Position numbers and translations under genes: made by a program. A model generated the notes under the pieces. The model saw only the letters and a list, made by a program, of their open reading frames with translations, was not told where the DNA came from and made no database searches. From assembly GCA_021810045.1 (NCBI GenBank), contig JAJZJR010000001.1, positions 124,001-188,000 of the forward strand: 64,000 nt of DNA, read 5' to 3'. Of the stretch, positions 16,802 through 28,683 are shown one piece after another; position 1 is the first letter of the stretch, and the number at the start of each line of letters is the position of its first letter. This DNA comes from Thermoplasmata archaeon. GTDB taxonomy: Archaea; Thermoplasmatota; Thermoplasmata; Thermoplasmatales; Thermoplasmataceae.

Positions 16802-16874
16802 GGGCTCGTAGTCTAGTGGTTATGATACCGCCCTTACAAGGCGGTGGTCACCGGTTCAAATCCGGTCGGGCCCA
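16802..16874 (+). tRNA. tRNA-Val (anticodon UAC)
   Basis: A 73-base intron-free tRNA reading valine codons GUA/GUN. The acceptor stem GGGCTCG pairs with CGGGCCC (one G-U pair), and the discriminator is A at 16874. The anticodon stem CCGCC/GGCGG encloses the loop CTTACAA with anticodon TAC, and the T-arm carries the GGTTCAAATCC pattern. CCA is not encoded. The last four bases (16871-16874) are also the first four bases of the casposon target-site duplication, so the insertion left the tRNA intact. Confidence 0.97.
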
Positions 16875-16884
16875 TTAATTATTT
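16871..16884 (+). repeat. Left target-site duplication of the casposon
   Basis: CCCATTAATTATTT directly abuts the left terminal inverted repeat, and the identical 14 bases recur at 28670-28683 directly after the right one. The first four bases belong to tRNA-Val. A 14-base duplication is in the range known for casposase insertions. Confidence 0.95.
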
Positions 16885-16928
16885 GGGGATATAGATAAGG
16901 CCGAAAAACGTGCCGCTTTTTATATCCC
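16885..16928 (+). repeat. Left terminal inverted repeat of the casposon
   Basis: 44 bases beginning GGGGATATAGATAAGG and ending TTTATATCCC. It is the reverse complement of 28626-28669 except for one T/C difference at 16917. It contains nested palindromic ends (GGGATATA... and ...TATATCCC), so each repeat can itself fold. Confidence 0.96.
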
Positions 16929-17010
16929 ATTTTAAAAATTTTATTCATCATTATGAGATTATAGTCAATTCTCAAGAAGAAAATTATTTAGATTTCAAGA
17001 GGTCAATTTC

Positions 17011-18390
17011 TTAGAAGATCACTTGTTTTAGCTTTGTGTCAATGAATTCATCTATTTCCTCAAACATACTTTCTCTTGAAAACTCTAAGAGTTCTACTAA
17101 ATCATCTTCACTCAATGCAATTATATATCTATCTGGAAGGTAGCTTCTACATCTGTTTATCACTTTCTCTTTATCTTCAATTTTCCTACAGACCAAGATT
17201 CCGAAGTTGCCCCTATTGTTGTTGAACCTTCCTGCTAACTGGTCGAATTCAGCGTTTGCCGGGTCATGTGAAATATTCTTGACCTCTATCATAGGATAAT
17301 TACAGTTTACTATATTTGTTAGTTTGAGGAAGAAACCATCCCTTGCTGAATTTGTGAAAACAATATCCAGTCTTTTAATTCCGTCTGCCGTTTTGAATTC
17401 CATGAGTAAATTCTTGAGGGCCCCTCTGAAAATTCTTCCCAGTGCGTGGGCCACTATTCGCTGATATTCGTATGCACCATCATGACCAGGTATAATTTTC
17501 TTCAATCGTTCAATGTACAAATTCTCAATGGACAGTTCCTCTGGATTGGGTTCTATAATTTTTGTCGAAGCTTTCTGCTCTACGATTTTCAATTTTGATG
17601 TGGTTGGGTTTTTAATAGATTCATCTAGTGGAATATGCTCTCGTATTTTTTCCTGTGTTAATAACCCTCTGAATAGACTTTCATCCATTCTTTTGTATAA
17701 GCGAGCATCGTCAGGGACATTGAATCTCTTTTCTAGTTTGAATCCATAGAGATACATAACTTCATCTAGTTCTTCGACTTGAAAATATTTATAGAAGGTC
17801 TTAAAGTGGGTTTTCTTTCCCATCCAAAGTCCATCACCTAGATTGTTCTTGCCCTCTTCTTTGATCTTCTTGTAAGAACCTTCTTTTTGAGCTAACCACA
17901 ATAAATATTTTCCATCGTTAATCTTTTGGTGCAAGATATCCAATAGTATTAGTCTTTCAGCAGGTACAGGCATGACCGGAGGCACATTCAAAAGTAGAGC
18001 AAGGTCATATTTTTTTGAATTAGATATAAATGGATTAGGGAAAAGTAATTTCTCGAATCTTTTACCGTGTTTAGAAGCAATTTTGACATTTCTCTTTGTG
18101 ATGTCGTTTTCCCCAAGTTCTTCAAACTCAACTGCACCTACATTTTTTCCTTGTTTCAGTAAGAAAGGAATGTTTTTCAATTTTCCAGCACCGAATTCCA
18201 GTACAGATTCAATTTCACCATATTCACTGTTTGAAAATATATTCTTCAGAGTTGTCTGAAGAGCTTTACTTGGCTCACCTTGTGATGGGGCCGAGCCCGT
18301 CACATCAACAACTACTTCTTTTAAATTGTCATCGTCATCAGTAGGAACCCTGAATCTGTAAATTGGAGATTTCCACAGCAAATCTGTCAT
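17011..18390 (-). CDS. Methyltransferase-like domain fused to a PD-(D/E)XK nuclease domain
   Basis: A 459-residue casposon cargo protein. Residues 40-240 look like a Rossmann-fold methyltransferase: VLEFGAGKLKNIPFLLKQG (E65, G67, G69) resembles the AdoMet-binding motif I, and VGAVEFEE the next acidic strand. Residues 290-430 form a restriction-endonuclease-like domain with D342 (RLDIVF), E369-x-K371 (MIEVKNIS) and Q384, the PD-(D/E)XK pattern. This suggests a one-protein restriction or anti-phage nuclease in which the first domain recognises or modifies nucleic acid. No classical (D/N)PPY motif is visible; NVPPVMP at 135-141 could stand in for it. It has its own promoter and a palindrome at its start, and is the leftmost gene of the element. 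Confidence 0.72.
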   Translation of the reverse strand: MTDLLWKSPIYRFRVPTDDDDNLKEVVVDVTGSAPSQGEPSKALQTTLKNIFSNSEYGEIESVLEFGAGKLKNIPFLLKQGKNVGAVEFEELGENDITKRNVKIASKHGKRFEKLLFPNPFISNSKKYDLALLLNVPPVMPVPAERLILLDILHQKINDGKYLLWLAQKEGSYKKIKEEGKNNLGDGLWMGKKTHFKTFYKYFQVEELDEVMYLYGFKLEKRFNVPDDARLYKRMDESLFRGLLTQEKIREHIPLDESIKNPTTSKLKIVEQKASTKIIEPNPEELSIENLYIERLKKIIPGHDGAYEYQRIVAHALGRIFRGALKNLLMEFKTADGIKRLDIVFTNSARDGFFLKLTNIVNCNYPMIEVKNISHDPANAEFDQLAGRFNNNRGNFGILVCRKIEDKEKVINRCRSYLPDRYIIALSEDDLVELLEFSRESMFEEIDEFIDTKLKQVIF

Positions 18391-18620
18391 TTTGAACTAT
18401 CCGCAAAGTTTGAGTAATAATGTTATTACTAACGTAGTAAACTTCATATTTATATAAAATTATTCTTGTAATTGTCTATTTAATTAATTGCATTGTAAAT
18501 TACCCCCTTCTTGAATGAAAACCAAGAGCATGGATAGATAACAGATAAAGACTCAAAGAAGTCTGGAGAAATGACTTGCTGAATAGACTCGAATAACTGA
18601 AACCAGTGTGCTCTGAAGCC
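18391..18620. promoter_or_regulatory. Promoter and operator-like palindrome of the MTase-nuclease gene
   Basis: For the leftward gene at 18390, a TATA box TTATATAAA lies at 18449-18457. A palindrome AGTAATAA-TG-TTATTACT lies at 18413-18430, where transcription should begin, so a bound protein there would block it. The remainder up to the polB stop at 18621 shows no gene. Confidence 0.55.
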
Positions 18621-21272
18621 TTATGAATTGGCTTGAACTTCTAAATCTTTATCGGGCAAATTCGATCCATTAAAGGACTTGATAAGGATTCTGTGAATCT
18701 TTGACCTATTCCTCAATCCCTTTCCATTTCTGACTTTCTGTTTGAAATTCCTTAATCCTCGCTCTGAAATTCCCAAGGTCTTGACCACATTAGGTTTGAG
18801 TGTCAAAGTCCACTGAATGAAAGCTTCCTTGTTCTGGTACTCGAGATATGAATCATTGCTTACGCCGAATACACTGACTTCATCGATATTGTTTGATTCC
18901 TTGCCTATGTACCTGATTCGGTCAGAGAATACTTGTTTCCTTTGGGCTTTATTGTCAAGATAGTCGAACTTGTTATCGTTATGCCTTACGTATGCTGTTA
19001 ACACATCTTCAAGTGATTTCCAGTACTCTTTTGAGGAAAAGGGCAATTCAATTGAAGATTTGCCAGTCCTGTAATCTATGAATTCCTTATACTGGATTCC
19101 TCTTGTCTCCTTCGAGAATGGTAATGTCGGAATAACATCATTTTTCTCAGAACCTACGAGAATGAAGTTGAAGGGTTTTATCTGTTTATTAAGGGCTTTG
19201 TTTTGGTTCATTTTCTTGAATCGGTTTAGAATCAAAGGTTTGGAAACGGTGATTTGAGATACTGCCATCTTTTCTGAGTAATTTTCAAATCTATTGTTCA
19301 AGATGTCTCTCCAAATCTGTTTTCCTTCTATATCCTTAAGATGGCCTAATCCGTGTGTGGAATACTTGAGTATTTCTTTCTTTCCATTGACAGTTCTATA
19401 CAGACAATATCGCTTTGCTGATATTCCATAAAAAATTATGTTATTCAACGGATTCTTCCTTTCATCCTCTTCTATCTTGAACATTTCAACATTCATTGAA
19501 TAGGGGTTCAATGGCCTGAAAAATTCCTGGATATATTTGACAGAATCAGGGTTGACAAATATCGAATCTGTATCGCAATATGCAAAATAGCCATTTGATT
19601 CCGCTATGTTTTCTGCCAATGCCAGAATCAGTCTTGCAGAACCAGTTATCAAGGTTGCCATTATCGGATTGAAGTATGACCCCTGTTTCTCAACCCTTTC
19701 AGTCCTGAAAGGGAACTGGTCAACCGAATAGACATTAACATCAAGTGGATTCTCAAGGGTTTCCGCATTCTCTTCAATGTAAAATCCGTATGATGTTGCA
19801 TTTGCAATAATCTTCAATATTAACTGAATCTGGTCTTTATCCAGTCTATTGGATTTCTTGACCCTGATCCTTTCCTCTATGACCTTGCGTATGAAATCAT
19901 CACTTGAGTTAACTTCGATATCAGATATTTTAACATTTTTCAAGTGTGATTGTTTGCGTTCGGGATAAAACGTAAAAGCCTGAATAATCTCAGGGGTCTT
20001 TCCAGTTAGTATCTTTGAAGCGATAATATCTTCAATAGTATACCACAACTCTTTGTCAGATGTTAGATAGTTAATTCCGATGTTCTTTGTTAACCTGGAA
20101 TATTCCATTCTAACAGGTAAGATGTCGCTGTTAGGTTTAACTTTAACAATTGAGTGCATTTCAGATTTATGCCATATCTCTGGGTTTCTGAGGTCTTCAA
20201 TCTTTAAAGAATTAACAAATTCACTAACAGCGATAACATTTTCCTTTACTTTTAATTTGGCGGATTTCAGGAATCTATCCAAGTTTAACAGAGAGTAAAC
20301 AGTTGGATACATTGAGGTAAAATCAAGATAGCTAACTCTGACAGGTTTATTCCTGATCCTAACCTCAGTACGTCCACCATAATACGAACTCATAACAAAA
20401 CCTAACACATCCTTTGGAAAGTCTGGATTGCATTCCATAAACGGTTTTATTCCCATTTTGTTAAGATATCCCTTTCCTATTGTTGCTGGTGAATAGAGCT
20501 TGTTAACTGGGTTAGACAGGTTAAACATCTCATATCGTTTCAGAGCAGATTGATACAATTCAGATGTTATTCTAACGTCATTTATGTTGTAGTCGATGTA
20601 TTTCTCGTTGATTTTCCCATGCTGTTCAATCCGAGTTTTTCTTGAAACATTGAAATCACTGCATGCCGAATCCAACGAATGTGATCTATCTGTTAATGCA
20701 AAAGTTAGAGTCTTGAGATCAACAAAGTATCCTGAATAATGCCTGTATCTCTTATCACTCGCTTTTCTCAACGGCCTTGCAAATGAAATGAAAGACCTTT
20801 TCTGGTCTATGCTCTGTATACGAATTCGTGGATTCCTCACATCCTCTGACAGCTTTAGGGAAAATCCGTCTTTTGTTTTGCGTGAGATTCCATAACTAAT
20901 TGCCAATCTTGACAAGTCAAAAGGCAGGTTAAAGCCTATAACCTCAGCTCTCATTCTGAAGGCGTATGGGTAAAACAGGTTATCCACAAAATCTCTGACA
21001 CTCATGACCTGTATGTTATTTTTTGACCCGTAAACTTCAATGATTTTTCTTTTATCATCCTGAATATCACCATAATACAGATACCAATCTTCTTTGAAAC
21101 CGGTGCTAATCTTTGTTCTGATAAGACATGATCCAAAAGTCAGGTTTTGATACTGATCTATGGTAGTCTCAGTGTCCAGAACCAGCGTGATGTTTGGATT
21201 ATGATAATCTGGTTCTTTGTACTTGAATTCTGGCCGGTTATCCGTGTATGCTCTCACAAAGATATCGCTCAT
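18621..21272 (-). CDS. polB: Casposon family B DNA polymerase
   Basis: An 883-residue family B DNA polymerase that presumably copies the casposon. The 3'-5' exonuclease motifs are intact: D33-T-E35 (LVLDTETT), N115..F118-D119 (GFNLPFDL) and Y228-NIN-D232. Polymerase motifs are YYGGR (297-301), motif A DFTSMYP (317-323), motif B K487..NATSYG (491-496), motif C YCDTDS (565-570), and a KRY element after it. It is the last gene of a five-gene leftward operon and overlaps the HNH gene by 4 bases. It closely fits the polymerases carried by euryarchaeal casposons. I cannot tell whether it is protein-primed: no clear TPR2-type insertion can be identified by eye. Confidence 0.93.
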   Translation of the reverse strand: MSDIFVRAYTDNRPEFKYKEPDYHNPNITLVLDTETTIDQYQNLTFGSCLIRTKISTGFKEDWYLYYGDIQDDKRKIIEVYGSKNNIQVMSVRDFVDNLFYPYAFRMRAEVIGFNLPFDLSRLAISYGISRKTKDGFSLKLSEDVRNPRIRIQSIDQKRSFISFARPLRKASDKRYRHYSGYFVDLKTLTFALTDRSHSLDSACSDFNVSRKTRIEQHGKINEKYIDYNINDVRITSELYQSALKRYEMFNLSNPVNKLYSPATIGKGYLNKMGIKPFMECNPDFPKDVLGFVMSSYYGGRTEVRIRNKPVRVSYLDFTSMYPTVYSLLNLDRFLKSAKLKVKENVIAVSEFVNSLKIEDLRNPEIWHKSEMHSIVKVKPNSDILPVRMEYSRLTKNIGINYLTSDKELWYTIEDIIASKILTGKTPEIIQAFTFYPERKQSHLKNVKISDIEVNSSDDFIRKVIEERIRVKKSNRLDKDQIQLILKIIANATSYGFYIEENAETLENPLDVNVYSVDQFPFRTERVEKQGSYFNPIMATLITGSARLILALAENIAESNGYFAYCDTDSIFVNPDSVKYIQEFFRPLNPYSMNVEMFKIEEDERKNPLNNIIFYGISAKRYCLYRTVNGKKEILKYSTHGLGHLKDIEGKQIWRDILNNRFENYSEKMAVSQITVSKPLILNRFKKMNQNKALNKQIKPFNFILVGSEKNDVIPTLPFSKETRGIQYKEFIDYRTGKSSIELPFSSKEYWKSLEDVLTAYVRHNDNKFDYLDNKAQRKQVFSDRIRYIGKESNNIDEVSVFGVSNDSYLEYQNKEAFIQWTLTLKPNVVKTLGISERGLRNFKQKVRNGKGLRNRSKIHRILIKSFNGSNLPDKDLEVQANS

Positions 21273-21670
21273 AGAATCACCGGATATCTTGATGTCAGGT
21301 ATTCTGCAATCAGCTTGTATATGCCAATACCTGTTCTTTCATGCTTCAATTCACAAATGTCAATAATTCCCCTCTCCAAGAGAATTTCAGAATTCTGGTA
21401 ATTCCATAACCTCTGTTTGTCTGTTAGCCTTCTATGGCATTCCAGACATACGGTCATAACCTCGTTGCCATGACTTCTACCTCTGATGTGATGCACTTCC
21501 AACTTTGTTGGTGATTTGCAAATCTCACAATCGTTCTTCTTGTCTCTATGCTCATTCTCTAAAATATCCGTTATCCAGTCAATAGACTCTTGGTATTCAC
21601 TGTCAATAATTTCCTTGGCCCTGAATATGCCTTCTAATATTGCACTGGATATGGATATCTTGGAATTCAA
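21269..21670 (-). CDS. HNH endonuclease of the casposon
   Basis: A 133-residue HNH nuclease, a conserved casposon companion gene. The metal-binding frame is CEIC (C48, C51) followed by LEVHHIRGRSHGNE (catalytic H60/H61, N69) and CLECHRRL (C75, C78, H79). The N-terminal 40 residues are helical and may bind DNA. It overlaps polB and the upstream gene by 4 bases each, so it is made with the polymerase. Proposed roles in casposons include processing replication or excision intermediates; none is proven here. Confidence 0.9.
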   Translation of the reverse strand: MNSKISISSAILEGIFRAKEIIDSEYQESIDWITDILENEHRDKKNDCEICKSPTKLEVHHIRGRSHGNEVMTVCLECHRRLTDKQRLWNYQNSEILLERGIIDICELKHERTGIGIYKLIAEYLTSRYPVIL

Positions 21671-22317
21671 GACTTGTAAATCTCCCAGAATTCCGGTTCT
21701 TCTTGACTTTCAGCAATTTCATACAGCTTATCTGGGTCTGTTTCGAAGTGGTGTAATTCACCATTGGCATCTTTGAAAGGTTTCCTGAATGACTTCAAGA
21801 CATCTGTCTTTCCTGTTCTCAAAAATTCCCTAACAGCAGAGTTATACTTTCCTATTCTTGATGCAGTTCGTGAATCTCTGATTTCAACCCAAGACTGTTT
21901 GCCCTTCTCATTAAGACTCATGACCCTTGATATTCTATCCTGAGACTTTGGAGTCCATTTTCCTCTGACTTTCAGAAAAGCATTGGTGTTCTTGATAACG
22001 GTTTCAGGAGATGTGTGCAACTCTCTTGACGCACTTGAAAGCGATTCACCATCCCTGACTTTTCTTAGAACTTCAAGTGATTTTTCCCTTTGATTCAGTT
22101 CTTTCCTAGAAATAGATTTCCATGAATGTTTGTATATTGGTTCAGGTTTTATTGTTGATACAACTCTTTCCTTGGATTTTGGATGACCTCTTATCTGTGA
22201 TAATGAAGCGTTTGGATATTTTGCATGCAACCTGGTGATTCTATTCCGGTATGAATCTGAACCATTGAAGCTGGATAGCCAATCCTGAAATGTCCTGTAT
22301 TCCGGTGAAAATGTCAT
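21667..22317 (-). CDS. Casposon protein with helix-turn-helix-like repeats
   Basis: A 216-residue basic protein with no firm family match. A helix-turn-helix-like segment appears near residues 84-115 (VRDGESLSSASRELHTSPETVIKNT). An earlier stretch, LHAKYPNASLSQIRGHPKSKER, has a similar Lys/Arg-rich helix pattern. The C-terminal 40 residues are acidic (FETDPDKLYEIAESQEEPEF). It sits between the HNH gene and the next small gene with 4-base overlaps on both sides, so it is co-translated with the polymerase. A DNA-binding role in replication or transposition is the natural guess. Confidence 0.7.
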   Translation of the reverse strand: MTFSPEYRTFQDWLSSFNGSDSYRNRITRLHAKYPNASLSQIRGHPKSKERVVSTIKPEPIYKHSWKSISRKELNQREKSLEVLRKVRDGESLSSASRELHTSPETVIKNTNAFLKVRGKWTPKSQDRISRVMSLNEKGKQSWVEIRDSRTASRIGKYNSAVREFLRTGKTDVLKSFRKPFKDANGELHHFETDPDKLYEIAESQEEPEFWEIYKS

Positions 22318-22787
22318 TTGGAATCGCCTTTGAGCAATGTGCTGAATTTTTCATAAGCTGTGCTGTCAAACAGGTTCTCAAAAAGAATTATGTCAGATTC
22401 AAGAAAACGGTGCTTTTTGAAGAGGTCGGCAAAATCTGAAACTTCTATTTCCGAAATAGGCTCTTTAGTTATTAGTGAAATAACGATCTTATTGAGGGCC
22501 AAGGCAGTAAGAACTTCAAATATTACCCCAATTGTTTTGCCCCTGTACCATAGTGAATTGCATTCTGACACTGACAAGAGGTAGGGCTTCATTGACCTCT
22601 TACCTTTGAACTCATTGCTATTTGGGTTAATCGTGATTGAATGCCCAAATGAATTCAGGAAATAGAGGTCATTCATCTCCGTTGGTGTGTTGTATAATCT
22701 GATTGAATGAGCATAGTAGATTTTATTCACTCCGTGAGCATCGATATTTGAACTGTATGTCTGGTTATCCGACCAATCAGACATCAT
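22314..22787 (-). CDS. Hypothetical casposon protein
   Basis: A 157-residue protein I do not recognise. It has a Ser/Tyr/Asn-rich N-terminus (MSDWSDNQTYSSNIDAHGVNK begins the frame) and a central hydrophobic stretch IGVIFEVLTALALNKIVISLI (about 85-105) that could be a buried helix rather than a membrane span. The C-terminus is acidic and helical. It overlaps both neighbours by 4 bases in the leftward polB operon. A replication or regulatory accessory role is possible, but nothing in the sequence is diagnostic. Confidence 0.62.
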   Translation of the reverse strand: MMSDWSDNQTYSSNIDAHGVNKIYYAHSIRLYNTPTEMNDLYFLNSFGHSITINPNSNEFKGKRSMKPYLLSVSECNSLWYRGKTIGVIFEVLTALALNKIVISLITKEPISEIEVSDFADLFKKHRFLESDIILFENLFDSTAYEKFSTLLKGDSK

Positions 22788-22972
22788 TTTTTCTCACTCT
22801 CTGGATTCCAAATGCCAAATGTCTCACGATTCAGCTTATTCCTTACAGAACCACACCTTGGGCGTTTCACCCTGTATTTTGGAATGCCCTTAGAATAATT
22901 CCATTCATGCCCACAAACCAAGCATTTCACTGGTGTCTTGACAATTTTTTGTTCACTCGCATCTATCACCAC
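22784..22972 (-). CDS. Small zinc-ribbon-like casposon protein
   Basis: A 62-residue basic protein, first gene of the leftward operon. It has CLVCGHEW (C18 and C21) and, 20 residues on, RPRCGSVRNKLNRE. The fourth cysteine expected of a zinc ribbon (CPRC) is Arg here, so the ribbon is degenerate unless a His completes it. It starts with tandem GTG codons (22972 or 22969). It overlaps the next gene by 4 bases and is divergent from the winged-helix regulator across 52 bases. It may be a small DNA-binding or regulatory protein. Confidence 0.65.
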   Translation of the reverse strand: MVIDASEQKIVKTPVKCLVCGHEWNYSKGIPKYRVKRPRCGSVRNKLNRETFGIWNPESEKK

Positions 22973-22988
22973 ATCACATATTATGTGG

Positions 22989-23024
22989 AAATATTCTAAT
23001 AGTCAGTTGACTATACTTTAGTCA
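22989..23024. promoter_or_regulatory. Shared divergent promoter and operator in the casposon
   Basis: The 52-base gap between the two casposon operons has one AT-rich core, AATATTCTAAT (about 22989-23000), that could serve as TATA element in both directions. Next to it is the palindrome TAGTCA-GT-TGACTA (23000-23013), with a further AGTCA half-site (23020-23024) touching the ATG of the winged-helix gene. A repressor bound here would shut off its own gene and probably the polB operon. Confidence 0.6.
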
Positions 23025-23654
23025 ATGGCTTATGATAGATTCCGGACTCAAAAGGAAACGAAAGAGAGGAATGAGAGACTGGTTCTGAAACTGCTTTTTG
23101 ATTCACCAATGAGATTCAAGGATTTGCTGGAAGAGACCGGACTATCAAGAGCTGGTCTTGATATGATATTGAAAAGACTTCAAGAGACAAAACAGATAGA
23201 ATCCATTATCGATAGTGGGAAACCTGCCTATTCACTAACAAAGAAAGGTGAAAAGACAGTAAAAGCAATCCCCATTATTCAGGATAACTTAGAATCTATA
23301 CTCAAGGTAAAACACGAATATTCCAATGAAATGGGAAAATTCAAACTTGGATACAAAGGGATAAACTTTGACGTGTTGAATGATGCTCAAGTAGATGCCA
23401 ACCTTACAAACGTTTTTAAGGAAATTGTAAAGGAATGCCTCAAGAAATCAGAGAATACCATAGCGGAAATTCCCAGTATTATCAGGGATAAATCAGAACT
23501 AAAGGGAAAAATGGTACTTGCTCTCACAATTGATTTTGATGATATGAGAGAGCAATTTCTGAATAGAAATAATAAAACTTGGAAAAAATTCGGATTGAAA
23601 TGGGAAAATGAGGAAGATTGGGAAAGACTATTTTCAGGGGATGATCCAAAATGA
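23025..23654 (+). CDS. Winged-helix transcriptional regulator of the casposon
   Basis: A 209-residue regulator. Residues 10-85 form a winged helix-turn-helix: RLVLKLLFDSPMRFKDLLEE, TGLSRAGLDMILKRL as recognition helix, then a wing, GKPAYSLTKKGEKTV. The remaining 120 residues are helical with a C-terminal acidic/aromatic part (KTWKKFGLKWENEEDWERLF). It is the first gene of the rightward operon and overlaps the casposase gene by 4 bases, so the two are made together. AGTCA half-sites around its own start suggest autorepression. Winged-helix genes beside cas1 are common in casposons. Confidence 0.85.
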   Translation: MAYDRFRTQKETKERNERLVLKLLFDSPMRFKDLLEETGLSRAGLDMILKRLQETKQIESIIDSGKPAYSLTKKGEKTVKAIPIIQDNLESILKVKHEYSNEMGKFKLGYKGINFDVLNDAQVDANLTNVFKEIVKECLKKSENTIAEIPSIIRDKSELKGKMVLALTIDFDDMREQFLNRNNKTWKKFGLKWENEEDWERLFSGDDPK

Positions 23655-24892
23655 ATCCATTGCTGTTATCTGGATTTGGAATAACCATTGAGGTTAACAA
23701 GGCCCGCTTGACCGTAAAACAAAAGGATGAAATTGTTGAGTTTGAGCCTCACAGAATGCCTTACGATTCCATTGTCATTGACGGCCATTACGGTTCTGTG
23801 AGTTTTGAGGCCATGCGTTGGTTATCCAAACATGATGTGTCTGTTATCCTGTTAAACTGGAATGGCAACCTTTTATCATCAACATTCCCAAAAGAAGGTA
23901 ATAACGGTCAACTGAGAATAAAACAGTATGAAAAATACCTCAATGCAGAGGAAAGAACGTTCATAGCGGAAAAAATAATAAATGAAAAAATAGAAAAATC
24001 ACTTGTTTTTCTTGAAAATCTATCAAATTTCTATAAAAAAATAAATTTTGAAAAAATAAAAAATATATTTTCCAAGGAATTTGAGGATTTTAATTTGAAA
24101 AAAGAAAAAATCAAGAAAAATAAAATAAATACAGAAAAAAGCGATTTAAAAAAGAAAATAACTGATTTAATGATGTATGAAGGCAGAGTAGCATCTGCCT
24201 ACTGGTCTGAATTGTCAATTATTTTCAATAAAATAGCACCGGAATTTAATTTTCAGTCCAGAAAAAACCTCTCATATTCCTGGAATATGAATGCATCTGA
24301 CCCGATAAATGCCCTGCTGAATTATGGATACGCAATTCTTGAGGGAATGATCAGAAAATGCATCAATTCAGTTGGTCTTGACCTCTCAATTGGATTTTTA
24401 CATGAAATAGCACCGTCAAAATATCCATTGGTATACGATTTTCAGGAATTATTCAGACATGTTGTGGATTATTCAGTTATCCAAATTCTTGAATCCGGTT
24501 TAAAAAAATCAGATTTTATAACAACCGAAAATTATCATATTCGGTTGAAGCCAAATACAGCAAAATTATTGATTGAAAAAATCAAAGAGAATTTCAATCA
24601 GCGTTATGATTTTAGAAATAAAAAGCACACTCTTGAAAATATAATGCTTGAGGATATAAGGGAATTTGGGAAATATCTATCAGAAAAGTCAAAGAACTTT
24701 GAATTTTTTATGCCCGAAATAAATATAAAGAGAAATGACAGCATCAACTTGAGGAAAAAAATAGAGTCAATCGAGCCAGAAGAAAGAAAAAAACTAAAAA
24801 TTAATAAATCAACATTGTGGTATCAACAAAAGAAAATTAAAGAAGGTAAGCCGGTTAAACTTTACGAAAAGACTAAAGTGAAAATCTCATGA
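23651..24892 (+). CDS. cas1: Casposase (Cas1-family integrase)
   Basis: A 413-residue Cas1 homologue that acts as the transposase: it joins the 3' ends of the excised element to staggered positions in target DNA. The N-terminal beta domain includes DSIVIDGHYGSVSFEAMRWL (39-58) and SVILLNWNGNLL (64-75). The helical catalytic domain has the Cas1 residues E177 (YEGRVASAYW), H251 (GFLHE) and E266 (YDFQELFRH). A lysine-rich segment (127-170) precedes it. After the Cas1 domain an extra tail (about 365-413, with INKSTLWYQQKKIKEGKP) resembles the C-terminal helix-turn-helix of casposases and is absent from CRISPR Cas1. The gene is strikingly AT-rich from 23.9 to 24.9 kb. It overlaps both neighbours by 4 bases; no cas2 or array is present. 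Confidence 0.95.
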   Translation: MNPLLLSGFGITIEVNKARLTVKQKDEIVEFEPHRMPYDSIVIDGHYGSVSFEAMRWLSKHDVSVILLNWNGNLLSSTFPKEGNNGQLRIKQYEKYLNAEERTFIAEKIINEKIEKSLVFLENLSNFYKKINFEKIKNIFSKEFEDFNLKKEKIKKNKINTEKSDLKKKITDLMMYEGRVASAYWSELSIIFNKIAPEFNFQSRKNLSYSWNMNASDPINALLNYGYAILEGMIRKCINSVGLDLSIGFLHEIAPSKYPLVYDFQELFRHVVDYSVIQILESGLKKSDFITTENYHIRLKPNTAKLLIEKIKENFNQRYDFRNKKHTLENIMLEDIREFGKYLSEKSKNFEFFMPEINIKRNDSINLRKKIESIEPEERKKLKINKSTLWYQQKKIKEGKPVKLYEKTKVKIS

Positions 24893-25806
24893 ATAACACT
24901 AGTTTTCCTAAATTTGATGAATTTTTATCTCCAATACTAAATTATTGCAAAGACAAACAAGAACACACACTTTCGGAGACCATAGATAAAATGGCGTATT
25001 ATTTTAGAATGAGCGATGACCAGAAAAATGCTCTCTTGCCTAGTGGTAAACGCACCTACATCTATGATAGAGTTGAATGGGCAATCACTTACCTTGTTCA
25101 AGCTGGGTTATTAGAGAGAACTGGCAGGTCAAAGTTCAAAATATCAGAGCTAGGGTTGAATGAACTTTCTGTAATGCCAGAGAAAATACCATACTCCTAT
25201 CTGCAAAAATTCCCATCTTTTGTGAAATTCAAGGAACTACGCCATCAGAAGAAAAAAAATAATGACAATTCCGAAAGTATGACCCCAGATGAGGAACTTG
25301 AAGTCCTTTTCGAAAAAAGGGAAGATATTCTCATACAAAATTTATTAAGTGCAATTTCCAACATAAAACCTTCAGACTTTGAAAGACTCATTATAGATTT
25401 AGTCCTAGCTCTTGGATATGGGAAAAATCATGAGGAAATGGCAAGAGTCTTAGGGAAAACAGGTGACCAAGGAATAGACGGGGAGATATCACAGGATAAA
25501 CTTGGTTTTGATAAAATATATCTTCAGGCTAAAAAATGGGATTCCAAAAGTTCAATTGGTTCAGGTCAAATAAGGGATTTTATAGGCGCATTAACAATCA
25601 AAAACGCATTAAAAGGGATTTTCATAACAACAGCTTCATTTTCAAAGGAAGCTAAAGAAACAGCCTTGAAAGATAACACTCACAAGATCGTTCTGATAGA
25701 TGGAGATGAACTGGCTAGTCTGATGATTGAGAACGGGATTGGTGTAAGATCTGTCAGAAATTATGAATCAAAGGAAATTGATGAAGACTATTTTGAATCC
25801 TTTTGA
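24889..25806 (+). CDS. mrr: Mrr-type (type IV) restriction endonuclease
   Basis: A 305-residue protein with the two-part Mrr layout. The N-terminal winged-helix domain (about 1-105) contains YDRVEWAITYLVQAGLLERTG. The C-terminal nuclease domain (155-295) shows GDQGIDGEI (D197), YLQAKKW (Q213-x-K215) and QIRDF (Q227), the Mrr variant of the PD-(D/E)XK centre in which Q replaces the E. Mrr proteins cut modified or foreign DNA. It overlaps the casposase gene by 4 bases, so it is part of the same operon, and it lies 15 bases ahead of the type IIG-like gene. Confidence 0.9.
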   Translation: MNNTSFPKFDEFLSPILNYCKDKQEHTLSETIDKMAYYFRMSDDQKNALLPSGKRTYIYDRVEWAITYLVQAGLLERTGRSKFKISELGLNELSVMPEKIPYSYLQKFPSFVKFKELRHQKKKNNDNSESMTPDEELEVLFEKREDILIQNLLSAISNIKPSDFERLIIDLVLALGYGKNHEEMARVLGKTGDQGIDGEISQDKLGFDKIYLQAKKWDSKSSIGSGQIRDFIGALTIKNALKGIFITTASFSKEAKETALKDNTHKIVLIDGDELASLMIENGIGVRSVRNYESKEIDEDYFESF

Positions 25807-25821
25807 AGGGTGTGAAATGAA

Positions 25822-28515
25822 ATGAAGAATTCCAAGGGGCAAGAAGAATATGAAATAGATTTCGAAAGAGTTGTAGAGTTAGTTTCCAAATATGAACAGA
25901 TAAAGAAATCAGGTGAAATCAAGAAGTACAATGAAGAATCCACAAAGAAGGATTTCATCTTGCCCTTGTTTGAAGCCCTTGGTTGGAATGTATATAACAG
26001 GGCCAAAAGAAATGATTCTATCAGTGCAGAGGAAACCATTTCCAAGAAGAGAGTGGATTATGGTTTCCGTATAAACGGTATTCCTAAGTTTTTCCTTGAA
26101 GCCAAATCCCTGAAAGAAGAAAATATACAGACAAATCCTAAATACATTACCCAAGCAATAGACTACGCCTGGATGAAATCGTGTTCATGGGCGATATTGT
26201 GTAATTTTGAAACTATTGCAGTATTTAATGCAGATTGGAAAGGATCAAACTTTGGAAATAACCTATTGTTTGTTCTTCATCCCAACGATTTCATTTCTGA
26301 TAAGAGATTTGAACATCTCTCAAAGGTTGCATTCATAAAAAATGAACTTGACGATGTTGCTTCGAAATATGGCAAGAAGCAAACAAAGAATACGATCAAC
26401 AAACAGCTCTTGAACGATATGATCCTATTCCGTGAGGTTCTTACAAAGGATATTGTAAGAAATAATCAGGATAAACATCTCTCTCAAGATGACCTTGATG
26501 AATCAGTCCAGAGGATTCTTGACCGTTTGATCTTCATTAGGAATGCAGAGGACAGAGAGCTTGAAGAAAATCGCCTACAATCCAATGTAAGACAATGGGC
26601 TTCGAGGGGAAAGGGTGAGTTGGTCAAGGAAATTTCAAAAGTGTACTCATACTTTGATGATCAATACAACAGCAAACTTTTTGCAAAGCATCTTTGTGAT
26701 CACCTGTATCTTGACAATGAGGTACTGCTTGAGGTAATCGAGGGCTTGAATCATTCAAAGGATAATTCATACAGGTATGATTTCTCAATAATCGAATCCG
26801 ATGTTCTTGGAAATATTTATGAGCAGTATTTGGGGAATATCCTCAAAACTACACCAAAAAGGGCAAAATTATCTGAATCCAAAACACATAGAAAAGAACA
26901 GGGTATTTACTATACACCTTCTACCATAGTTGATTACATCGTTAACAACACTGTTGGAGAATACCTCAAAACGCACACACCAGAGGAAATCAAAAACGTT
27001 AAGATACTTGACCCCGCATGCGGTTCTGGAAGCTTTCTTATTCGTGTATACAAAGAGCTTGAAAATTATTGGAAAGAAGAACTTAAGCTCAACGAAAGTG
27101 ATTTGAAACAAACAAGGTTTGATATTGAAAATTCAGAGAAAGTGTATACTCTTAAAACCGAGATTCTCAAAAATAACATCTTTGGCGTTGACCTAGATCC
27201 AAAAGCAGTAGAAATTGCTCAACTGAATTTGTTATTACAGATTTCAGAGAGAAAACATAGATTGCCAGAACTTCAAAAGAATATAAAGATTGGAAACAGT
27301 CTGATAGACGATTCTTCTGTAAGCGACAGGGCATTTGTGTGGGAAAAGGAATTCGAGGCCATAATGAAAGAGGGTGGGTTTGACATCGTGGTAGGTAATC
27401 CGCCTTATTTTAACGTTAAATCTGATGATGTGTTGAAGGCCTCAAGGGTGTATAGGGAAATAGCTAATGGCGTGGTTAATTCCGCTTCTTTGTTTATGCA
27501 AAAAGGGAAGTCATTGTTGCGGGAATCTGGTTATCTTGGGTACATTGTGCCAAAATCGTTTCTAATAGTTGATTCCTGGAAAACTATCAGAAATAACCTA
27601 TTACAAACTAGGTTTACTTCTTTAAAGGATGTTAGTGTCGCATTCGAAGATGTTGGGTTAGAGCAAGTTGTCTTCATTAACCAAAATGTCCAAAACAAAG
27701 ATTCGCAAGTACGTATTGACGTTCTAGACGGGACATCTTTTCTGATTCCTCAGTCATTTTTCGAAGAACGTCAACTAATACTCACATCTATGTATCCAGA
27801 CCTTTTGAATATTGTTAAGAAAATAGAAAAGGACTCAATTGAGTTAGGCGAAATTTCTGAAATGCCTAGAGGTGTAACTGTTAAGTCTAGTGAGTATGAG
27901 CCAGTCTACAAAAATAATAATCTCCAAGTATTGGGTGGTACAAATGTTGAGAGATATTTAATCAAAGATGGTAATAAACGTAAACCAAACAGGTACTTAC
28001 CCAAAGACGATAAAAGACTGTTTTCAAAGAAGAATTTGTTCATCCCCAATAGGATTGTCTACCAAAATATAGTATCAAGCGTTCCTAAGATTGTGGCTAC
28101 AATAGATCAAAAAGGTATACCAACTGATGATACACTCAACAACCTATTAATTAAAAATGACAACTTCAATTATAATTATGTATTGGGAATACTAAATTCA
28201 AACCTAATGACTTTTTACCTGAGATATGCGATAATTAACAATTCTACTCTTACAGTACATCTTGATAAACCATACTTGGGTTTGATTCCCATAAAGAAAG
28301 TATCTCCAGAAAAGCAGACAGAGATAGGGGGCTTAGTCAATGAACTTCTAACCGTTTATAGTGAAATTTCGGAAGAAAGTTCTCAATTTAATGATAAGAG
28401 TATTAGGCTTAGAACCTATGCACGTTCTATTGAGAATAAGTTAAATTTGGCTATCAATGACTTATACGGCATAAATAAACAAGATGCTGAGAGGATTAAA
28501 ATATTGATTTCATGA
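25822..28515 (+). CDS. Type IIG-like restriction-modification protein (Eco57I-like)
   Basis: An 897-residue single-chain restriction-methylation protein. An N-terminal nuclease domain has D79 (RVDYGF) and E93-x-K95 (FLEAKS). A helical spacer leads to the adenine methyltransferase domain with motif I DPACGSGSF (D397 onward), the acidic FGVDLDPKAVEIAQLNLLLQI and the catalytic N526-PPY (VGNPPYF). The C-terminal half is a target-recognition domain (about 650-897) with a TaqI-like specificity region. Cutting and modification in one protein means no separate immunity gene is required. It is the last gene of the rightward casposon operon and ends about 110 bases before the right terminal repeat. Confidence 0.92.
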   Translation: MKNSKGQEEYEIDFERVVELVSKYEQIKKSGEIKKYNEESTKKDFILPLFEALGWNVYNRAKRNDSISAEETISKKRVDYGFRINGIPKFFLEAKSLKEENIQTNPKYITQAIDYAWMKSCSWAILCNFETIAVFNADWKGSNFGNNLLFVLHPNDFISDKRFEHLSKVAFIKNELDDVASKYGKKQTKNTINKQLLNDMILFREVLTKDIVRNNQDKHLSQDDLDESVQRILDRLIFIRNAEDRELEENRLQSNVRQWASRGKGELVKEISKVYSYFDDQYNSKLFAKHLCDHLYLDNEVLLEVIEGLNHSKDNSYRYDFSIIESDVLGNIYEQYLGNILKTTPKRAKLSESKTHRKEQGIYYTPSTIVDYIVNNTVGEYLKTHTPEEIKNVKILDPACGSGSFLIRVYKELENYWKEELKLNESDLKQTRFDIENSEKVYTLKTEILKNNIFGVDLDPKAVEIAQLNLLLQISERKHRLPELQKNIKIGNSLIDDSSVSDRAFVWEKEFEAIMKEGGFDIVVGNPPYFNVKSDDVLKASRVYREIANGVVNSASLFMQKGKSLLRESGYLGYIVPKSFLIVDSWKTIRNNLLQTRFTSLKDVSVAFEDVGLEQVVFINQNVQNKDSQVRIDVLDGTSFLIPQSFFEERQLILTSMYPDLLNIVKKIEKDSIELGEISEMPRGVTVKSSEYEPVYKNNNLQVLGGTNVERYLIKDGNKRKPNRYLPKDDKRLFSKKNLFIPNRIVYQNIVSSVPKIVATIDQKGIPTDDTLNNLLIKNDNFNYNYVLGILNSNLMTFYLRYAIINNSTLTVHLDKPYLGLIPIKKVSPEKQTEIGGLVNELLTVYSEISEESSQFNDKSIRLRTYARSIENKLNLAINDLYGINKQDAERIKILIS

Positions 28516-28625
28516 TAGACTTTTGTCATTCCTTAAAGTGATAATTATGGTTCCAATAGGAATTCAGATCGTTAGACTTGGAATTTTCTTTTAAATCTGA
28601 TAAGGTCAAGTAAAATTTTTGAAAA

Positions 28626-28669
28626 GGGATATAAAAGGCGGCACGTTTTTCGGCCTTATCTATATCCCC
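28626..28669 (-). repeat. Right terminal inverted repeat of the casposon
   Basis: 44 bases that mirror 16885-16928 with a single difference. The element ends at the fourth C of a seven-C run; the next three C's belong to the target duplication. Confidence 0.96.
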
Positions 28670-28683
28670 CCCATTAATTATTT
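28670..28683 (+). repeat. Right target-site duplication of the casposon
   Basis: CCCATTAATTATTT, identical to 16871-16884. It carries a copy of the last four tRNA-Val bases followed by the sequence that originally lay downstream of the tRNA. Confidence 0.95.

Follow-up and report, generated by a model that had tools for sequence, protein, structure and literature searches.

The window, the whole 64,000-nucleotide stretch of DNA analysed here, carries a tRNA-Val(tac) gene at positions 16802–16874 (plus strand), identified by ARAGORN, Rfam and the target alignment, and next to its 3′ end an element of 11,785 bp (~11.8 kb) extending from 16885 to 28669. The element is bounded by terminal inverted repeats (TIRs) of 44 nt, located at 16885–16928 (left, plus strand) and 28626–28669 (right, minus strand), which are identical at 43 of the 44 positions; at the right end the terminal sequence is ...CTATATCCCC-3′. 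A weaker likeness continues beyond the 44 nt, up to 16960 on the left and from 28594 on the right, and results in a 76-nt pair with 88% identity. Exact inverted repeats within the 13.5 kb around the element reach 32 nt, whereas in 40 simulated sequences with matching dinucleotide composition none was longer than 20 nt.

The element is flanked by a perfect 14-bp target site duplication, CCCATTAATTATTT, at 16871–16884 and 28670–28683 (both plus strand). This sequence occurs at just these two sites in the window, and the probability of a 14-base identity arising by chance at a fixed position is ~1e-8. Because tRNA-Val ends at 16874, the CCCA of the left copy is the 3′ end of the tRNA: the last four nucleotides of the gene lie inside the duplication, and the insertion left the tRNA complete. 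Casposons are transposons that integrate by means of a Cas1 enzyme related to the Cas1 of CRISPR memory storage. Their TIRs range from 25 to 602 nt, and the median length of the target duplication is 15 nt; many casposons, though not all, insert at the 3′ end of a tRNA gene and keep that gene intact. The 44-nt TIR and the 14-nt duplication of the window element fall within the description of family 2 casposons. The element is more AT-rich (36% GC) than the window (41% GC). A TIR search of the host genome found a single TIR pair, at the tRNA-Val site, and neither a second copy nor a miniature element.

The genes form two divergent groups, in which every reading frame is open. The leftward group encodes proteins of 62, 157 and 216 amino acids, an HNH endonuclease, a family B DNA polymerase (PolB) and a 459-aa methyltransferase/nuclease-like protein; the rightward group encodes a winged-helix regulator, Cas1, an Mrr-type endonuclease and a type IIG enzyme. 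The initial annotation had described the locus as a complete casposon inserted at tRNA-Val, with 44-bp inverted termini carrying one mismatch, a perfect 14-bp target duplication, a Cas1-family integrase (23651–24892), a PolB (18621–21272), and HNH and winged-helix genes. All of this was confirmed, to the base at the termini. The present analysis adds that the duplication starts in the last four nucleotides of the tRNA, that the Cas1, PolB, HNH and HTH genes are open and that Cas1 belongs to the casposase clade. It also adds the restriction genes carried as cargo near either end, two short ORFs in the core and the promoter region between the divergent gene groups.

The Cas1 protein (413 aa, 23651–24892, plus strand), assigned by profile, alignment, tree and motifs, matches PF01867 (E = 2.5e-57), and all four catalytic residues, Glu177, His251, Asp263 and Glu266, are conserved. 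The Cas1-family profile aligned with the Methanosarcina mazei casposase (6OPM) over the full length, including the C-terminal HTH, with an E-value of 3.4e-129, whereas its top CRISPR Cas1 match gave 1.1e-45. The C-terminal HTH extension aligns with the 6OPM tail and with all relatives; removal of the HTH reportedly abolishes the activity of the M. mazei enzyme. A maximum likelihood tree was built from 39 proteins, 23 casposases and 16 CRISPR Cas1, with the Aciduliprofundum boonei casposase left out. The casposases separated from the 16 CRISPR Cas1 proteins with 100/100 support, and the window Cas1 fell among them, settling the check on grouping suggested with the initial annotation. Its partner in the tree is the Cas1 of G183 (100/99), and next to this pair are the proteins of Thermogymnomonas acidicola and G142 (100/99). 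On the evidence of these comparisons the window protein is a casposase, not a CRISPR Cas1. A search of the host genome (estimated 99.9% complete) gave no further Cas1, and the element itself showed no Cas2 or repeat-spacer array. In a scan of viral_contigs the Cas1 homologues were weak (21–28% identity).

PolB (883 aa, 18621–21272, minus strand) had no match below 1e-3 in Pfam and likewise none in NCBIfam, therefore the family call was based on motifs and fold comparison. The protein contains the full exonuclease and polymerase motif set (DTETT, NLPFD, YNINDV, DFTSMYPT, KIIANATSYG and CDTDS), and Foldseek matched the predicted fold to PolB structures with E-values down to 9.6e-11; with a pLDDT of 61 the model is a low-confidence one, so that the fold match supports family B but not details. 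The CDTDS form of motif C marks a small and divergent group of PolB proteins, which includes the polymerase of the A. boonei casposon (PMC7544198). The element has a family B polymerase of its own, which from its motifs and fold is predicted not to be the protein-primed type of family 1. Helices were predicted near the C-terminus (806–869), but in a pairwise comparison the HTH similarity of the PolB tail to that of Cas1 did not rise above chance (103 of 1000 shuffles scored equally high).

The HNH endonuclease (133 aa, 21269–21670, minus strand) was recognized by PF01844 at 3.2e-4, a score that narrowly misses the curated cut-off, and in relatives the HNH homologues adjoin PolB. The neighbouring 216-aa core protein (21667–22317, minus strand) has a predicted HTH and homologues in 19 other casposon loci; with its model (pLDDT 90) the fold search gave only insignificant matches to HTH regulators. 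It is followed by the 157-aa protein (22314–22787, minus strand), which by homology is shared with G183 and G142, and by the 62-aa protein (22784–22972, minus strand), a Cys-containing, by motif reading zinc-ribbon-like protein with homologues in G183 (90%) and in a Bathyarchaeota casposon. The HxlR-like winged-helix regulator (23025–23654, plus strand; PF01638, 2e-5) overlaps the start of cas1, and thaumarchaeal casposons have winged-helix homologues immediately upstream of cas1. The HNH and two HTH proteins, that of 216 aa with its HTH as a prediction, belong to the family 2 core set. None of the ten proteins of the element had a Pfam match to HEAT repeats; an HTH-HEAT protein belongs to the core of most, but not all, known family 2 casposons (PMC4046053).

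The divergent promoter region (22973–23024, 52 bp) is conserved more than the genes between the window and G183 copies. The palindrome TTGACTA-TACTT-TAGTCAA at 23007–23025, which runs into the start codon, is identical in G183 and may serve as an operator. It was preferred to a 16-bp palindrome at 22999–23014, which is imperfect in G183.

Both ends of the element carry putative restriction genes. The left cargo protein (459 aa, 17011–18390, minus strand) appears, by motif reading, to have a methyltransferase-like N-terminus and a PD-(D/E)XK-nuclease-like C-terminus; its matches were weak ones to PADLOC PDC-M36A and to PHROGs and nothing else, tblastn found no match in the relatives, and the gene is absent from the G183 copy, which has a different left cargo. 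On the right, the Mrr-type (type IV, methyl-directed) restriction endonuclease (305 aa, 24889–25806, plus strand) was identified by PF04471 (5.4e-31), PF14338 and PADLOC mREase_IV (1.9e-73). The type IIG restriction enzyme-methyltransferase (897 aa, 25822–28515, plus strand; Pfam and PADLOC) consists of an HSDR_N-like nuclease, an Eco57I-type methyltransferase and a TaqI_C-type specificity domain. The window and G183 type IIG proteins are ~78–90% identical up to the NPPY motif and diverge sharply beyond it, in the part where the specificity domain lies (limits from Pfam). This sharp divergence suggests that the specificity of the enzyme, whose function is predicted, was exchanged by recombination between copies. 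At residue 279 the G183 type IIG gene (L051/L052) contains an additional ~1.27 kb, which lies at the ends of the contig.

In the window the T-arm sequence TCAAATC of tRNA-Val occupies positions −15 to −9 relative to the insertion point, and the site reads TCAAATC-N8-CC. This is identical to the motif that in vitro mapping gave for the casposase of A. boonei, which needs TCAAATC at −15 to −9 and CC at +1/+2 (PMC6614799). The window element and six relatives all have their duplication beginning 8 bp past the T-arm TCAAATC of a tRNA gene; the tRNAs used are Val, Pro (three times), Glu, Ser and Arg, and one of the tRNA-Pro targets appears, by reading, to have an intron. Both TCAAATC and CC are present at the window, G183, G018 and REEA70 sites, whereas the remaining sites keep TCAAATC and have other bases in place of the CC. 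The host genome contains seven TCAAATC-N8-CCCA sites and none of the reversed pattern. Judged from the occupied sites, the in vitro rule TCAAATC-N8-CC holds in nature here. An element of an acidophile with a sister at another tRNA in another genus makes a good natural test of the rule.

The sister copy resides in ASS_A1 (CP009479.1; G183), which belongs to another genus. It sits at tRNA-Pro; its ends are near-identical to those of the window element, it is flanked by a 14-bp duplication of its own, CCCATCATATTCAT, and the tRNA-Val of this genome is unoccupied. In two genomes of the host's own genus, G001 and G002, tRNA-Val is followed by the same phosphoribosyltransferase gene after ~160 and 320 bp, respectively, with no element between. 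The block is not fixed at its site, a point on which the initial annotation had asked for a check. The tRNA-Val neighbourhood of G005 (L069:3957–7250) contains ~3.3 kb of other genes, and in G002 (L067:3129–4070) transposase-like fragments lie upstream of tRNA-Val.

The core proteins of the window and G183 copies are 75–90% identical, and the core DNA is 84% identical. The host proteins are mostly 44–61% identical (enoyl-CoA hydratase-like protein 44%, alanyl-tRNA synthetase 54%, cytochrome b 60%, Rieske protein 61%), with one, PdxS, at 77%. Since core identity exceeds host protein identity, the element most likely crossed between genera after the hosts had split. Two transposase-like frames interrupt PolB in the G183 copy, which is thus in decay. 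The host had been called Thermoplasmatales-like, and genome grouping agreed, placing it in one family with the genomes that carry the Acidiplasma aeolicum and Thermogymnomonas loci.

Full-length or nearly full-length casposases were detected in four of 117 Thermoplasmatales genomes: the host, G183, G018 and Thermogymnomonas. Among these, only the window and G018 elements were seen with both TIRs, the duplication and open PolB, HNH and Cas1 genes. Broken casposase remnants, counted by hand, were present in ~16 of the 117 genomes, mostly as fragments reaching the C-terminal HTH. The remnants suggest repeated casposon invasion and decay across the Thermoplasmatales. Related family 2 elements were found in thaumarchaeal, Aenigmarchaeota, Bathyarchaeota and other bins.

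Several of the remnant loci (L057, L058, L059, L060 and others) are on stretches that also carry tRNA genes. Three thaumarchaeal loci (L075, L077 and L080) contain TIR-bounded, family 2-type casposons of ~14 kb, each with a Cas1 and a PolB homologous to that of the window. They occupy tRNA-Pro, -Ser and -Glu, and their ends begin with GGGGTA(A/T)AGACA. Further casposases (L074, L085, L096, L089, L092 and L093) come from bins labelled Nanoarchaeota, bacterium, Acidobacteria and Aenigmarchaeota, and binning errors may account for some of them. The G142 casposon (L072:8862–15737, JAMCUS010000020.1) is near tRNA-Met. Just after its Cas1 there are three repeat-protein ORFs (768, 989 and 283 aa), HEAT-like by eye and composed of ~45 tandem 120-bp units, and two of them are preceded by a duplicated 3′ piece of the Cas1 gene encoding the HTH.

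The element was compared with described casposons. With AciBoo-C1 of A. boonei (family 2; PMC4046053, PMC6614799), likened by published description and not gene by gene, it has in common Cas1-HTH, a divergent PolB of the PolB_CDTDS type, HNH and HTH proteins, tRNA 3′-end insertion, a 14–15-bp duplication and the rule TCAAATC-N8-CC; AciBoo-C1 is at tRNA-Pro, not tRNA-Val, and the host groups differ. The casposons of M. mazei (PMC6977970, PMC10359463; 6OPM) have a Cas1 homologous over the full length including the HTH, and a 14-bp duplication overlapping the last four tRNA nucleotides. The terminus of the window element, ...TATATCCCC, agrees with that of the M. mazei element, 5′-TATATCCC (PMC6977970), but the M. 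mazei target starts with CGCA at tRNA-Leu and the Cas1 tree places the two far apart. Movement in vivo has been shown for the M. mazei element (PMC10359463), the only such case in the literature searched, whereas the window element is known from its sequence. NitNCS1-C1 of Nitrosotalea okcheonensis (family 2; PMC6563490) shares the family 2 gene set and a tRNA target, but has a thaumarchaeal host, a fragmented PolB and tRNA-Pro as its site. The ASS_A1 casposon, located by search, is near-identical in its ends, promoter region and core gene order; it differs in its tRNA-Pro site, in the PolB broken by a transposase-bearing insertion, in the left cargo and in the replaced type IIG specificity half.

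We are highly confident that the locus contains an intact, autonomous family 2 casposon; the likely mechanism of its insertion is as follows. The casposase (Cas1 plus HTH) would bind the casposon ends and the T-arm TCAAATC of the tRNA gene, and the 3′ ends of the element would be joined to the two target strands 14 bp apart, from the CC of the tRNA 3′ end. Fill-in repair would produce the 14-bp duplication and leave the tRNA intact. PolB may copy the element or fill gaps, the HNH and 216-aa proteins probably help end processing or targeting, and the divergent core operons are probably regulated by the winged-helix protein; as cargo, the restriction genes would protect both the host and the element. 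Other groups have reportedly shown strand transfer by the casposases of A. boonei and M. mazei, and by analogy the window casposase may be expected to catalyse it. We infer that the element moved by casposase activity and may still be active.

The perfect duplication, the 43/44 ends, the open core and cargo frames, the conserved catalytic residues and the same-genus species that lack the element all speak against a casposon by descent that has stopped moving and is kept as a stable tRNA-linked island for its restriction genes. We regard this reading as possible though doubtful. In its favour, the element is single-copy, its nearest known copy has 84%, not near-identical, DNA, casposons are mostly broken in the Thermoplasmatales, and an insertion disrupted the sister PolB. 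The earlier wording 'recently mobile' holds only in part: the ends, the duplication and the genes are intact, but the closest copy is 84% identical in DNA.

Transfer RNA 3′ ends are classic att sites and the direct repeat spans the tRNA end, as would also be the case for an island inserted by a tyrosine recombinase that picked up cas1 by chance. However, none of the ten element proteins matched a recombinase family, nor was any other recombinase or transposase found among them (Pfam and PADLOC; eight were also compared with PHROGs), and att sites do not come with long inverted termini. The fixed distance between TCAAATC and the repeat, at different tRNAs in the window and six relatives, is expected of a casposase and makes such an island very improbable. 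Still harder to credit is a displaced CRISPR adaptation module that is not a transposon: the Cas1 profile scores high and the winged-helix protein is weakly similar to Csa3, but Cas2 and a repeat-spacer array are missing from the element, the genome search gave no other Cas1, and the position of Cas1 in the casposase group, with a family 2 HTH tail, refutes this reading. The ends, the duplication, the target motif, the open frames, the casposase descent, the second site in another genus and the unoccupied sites are established, and the element is a well-preserved new example of the known family 2 casposons.

In vitro studies cover only three casposases (PMC9939771). For the Thermoplasmatales, the literature searched, with many subscription papers outside it, mentions only a 'casposon-associated protein' in E-plasma (PMC10354927) and gave no description of an intact casposon, which is not proof of priority. 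Two casposons bounded by TIRs and target duplications and with open core genes, those of the window and G018, among 117 Thermoplasmatales genomes are new. More speculatively, and with the odds against it, this acidophile casposon clade could be a still-mobile, travelling restriction island, with a constant core and constant ends but with a left cargo and a type IIG specificity half that are exchanged between copies. If so, the clade would spread by altering the restriction specificity of its hosts, the one studied here having yielded no CRISPR Cas1.
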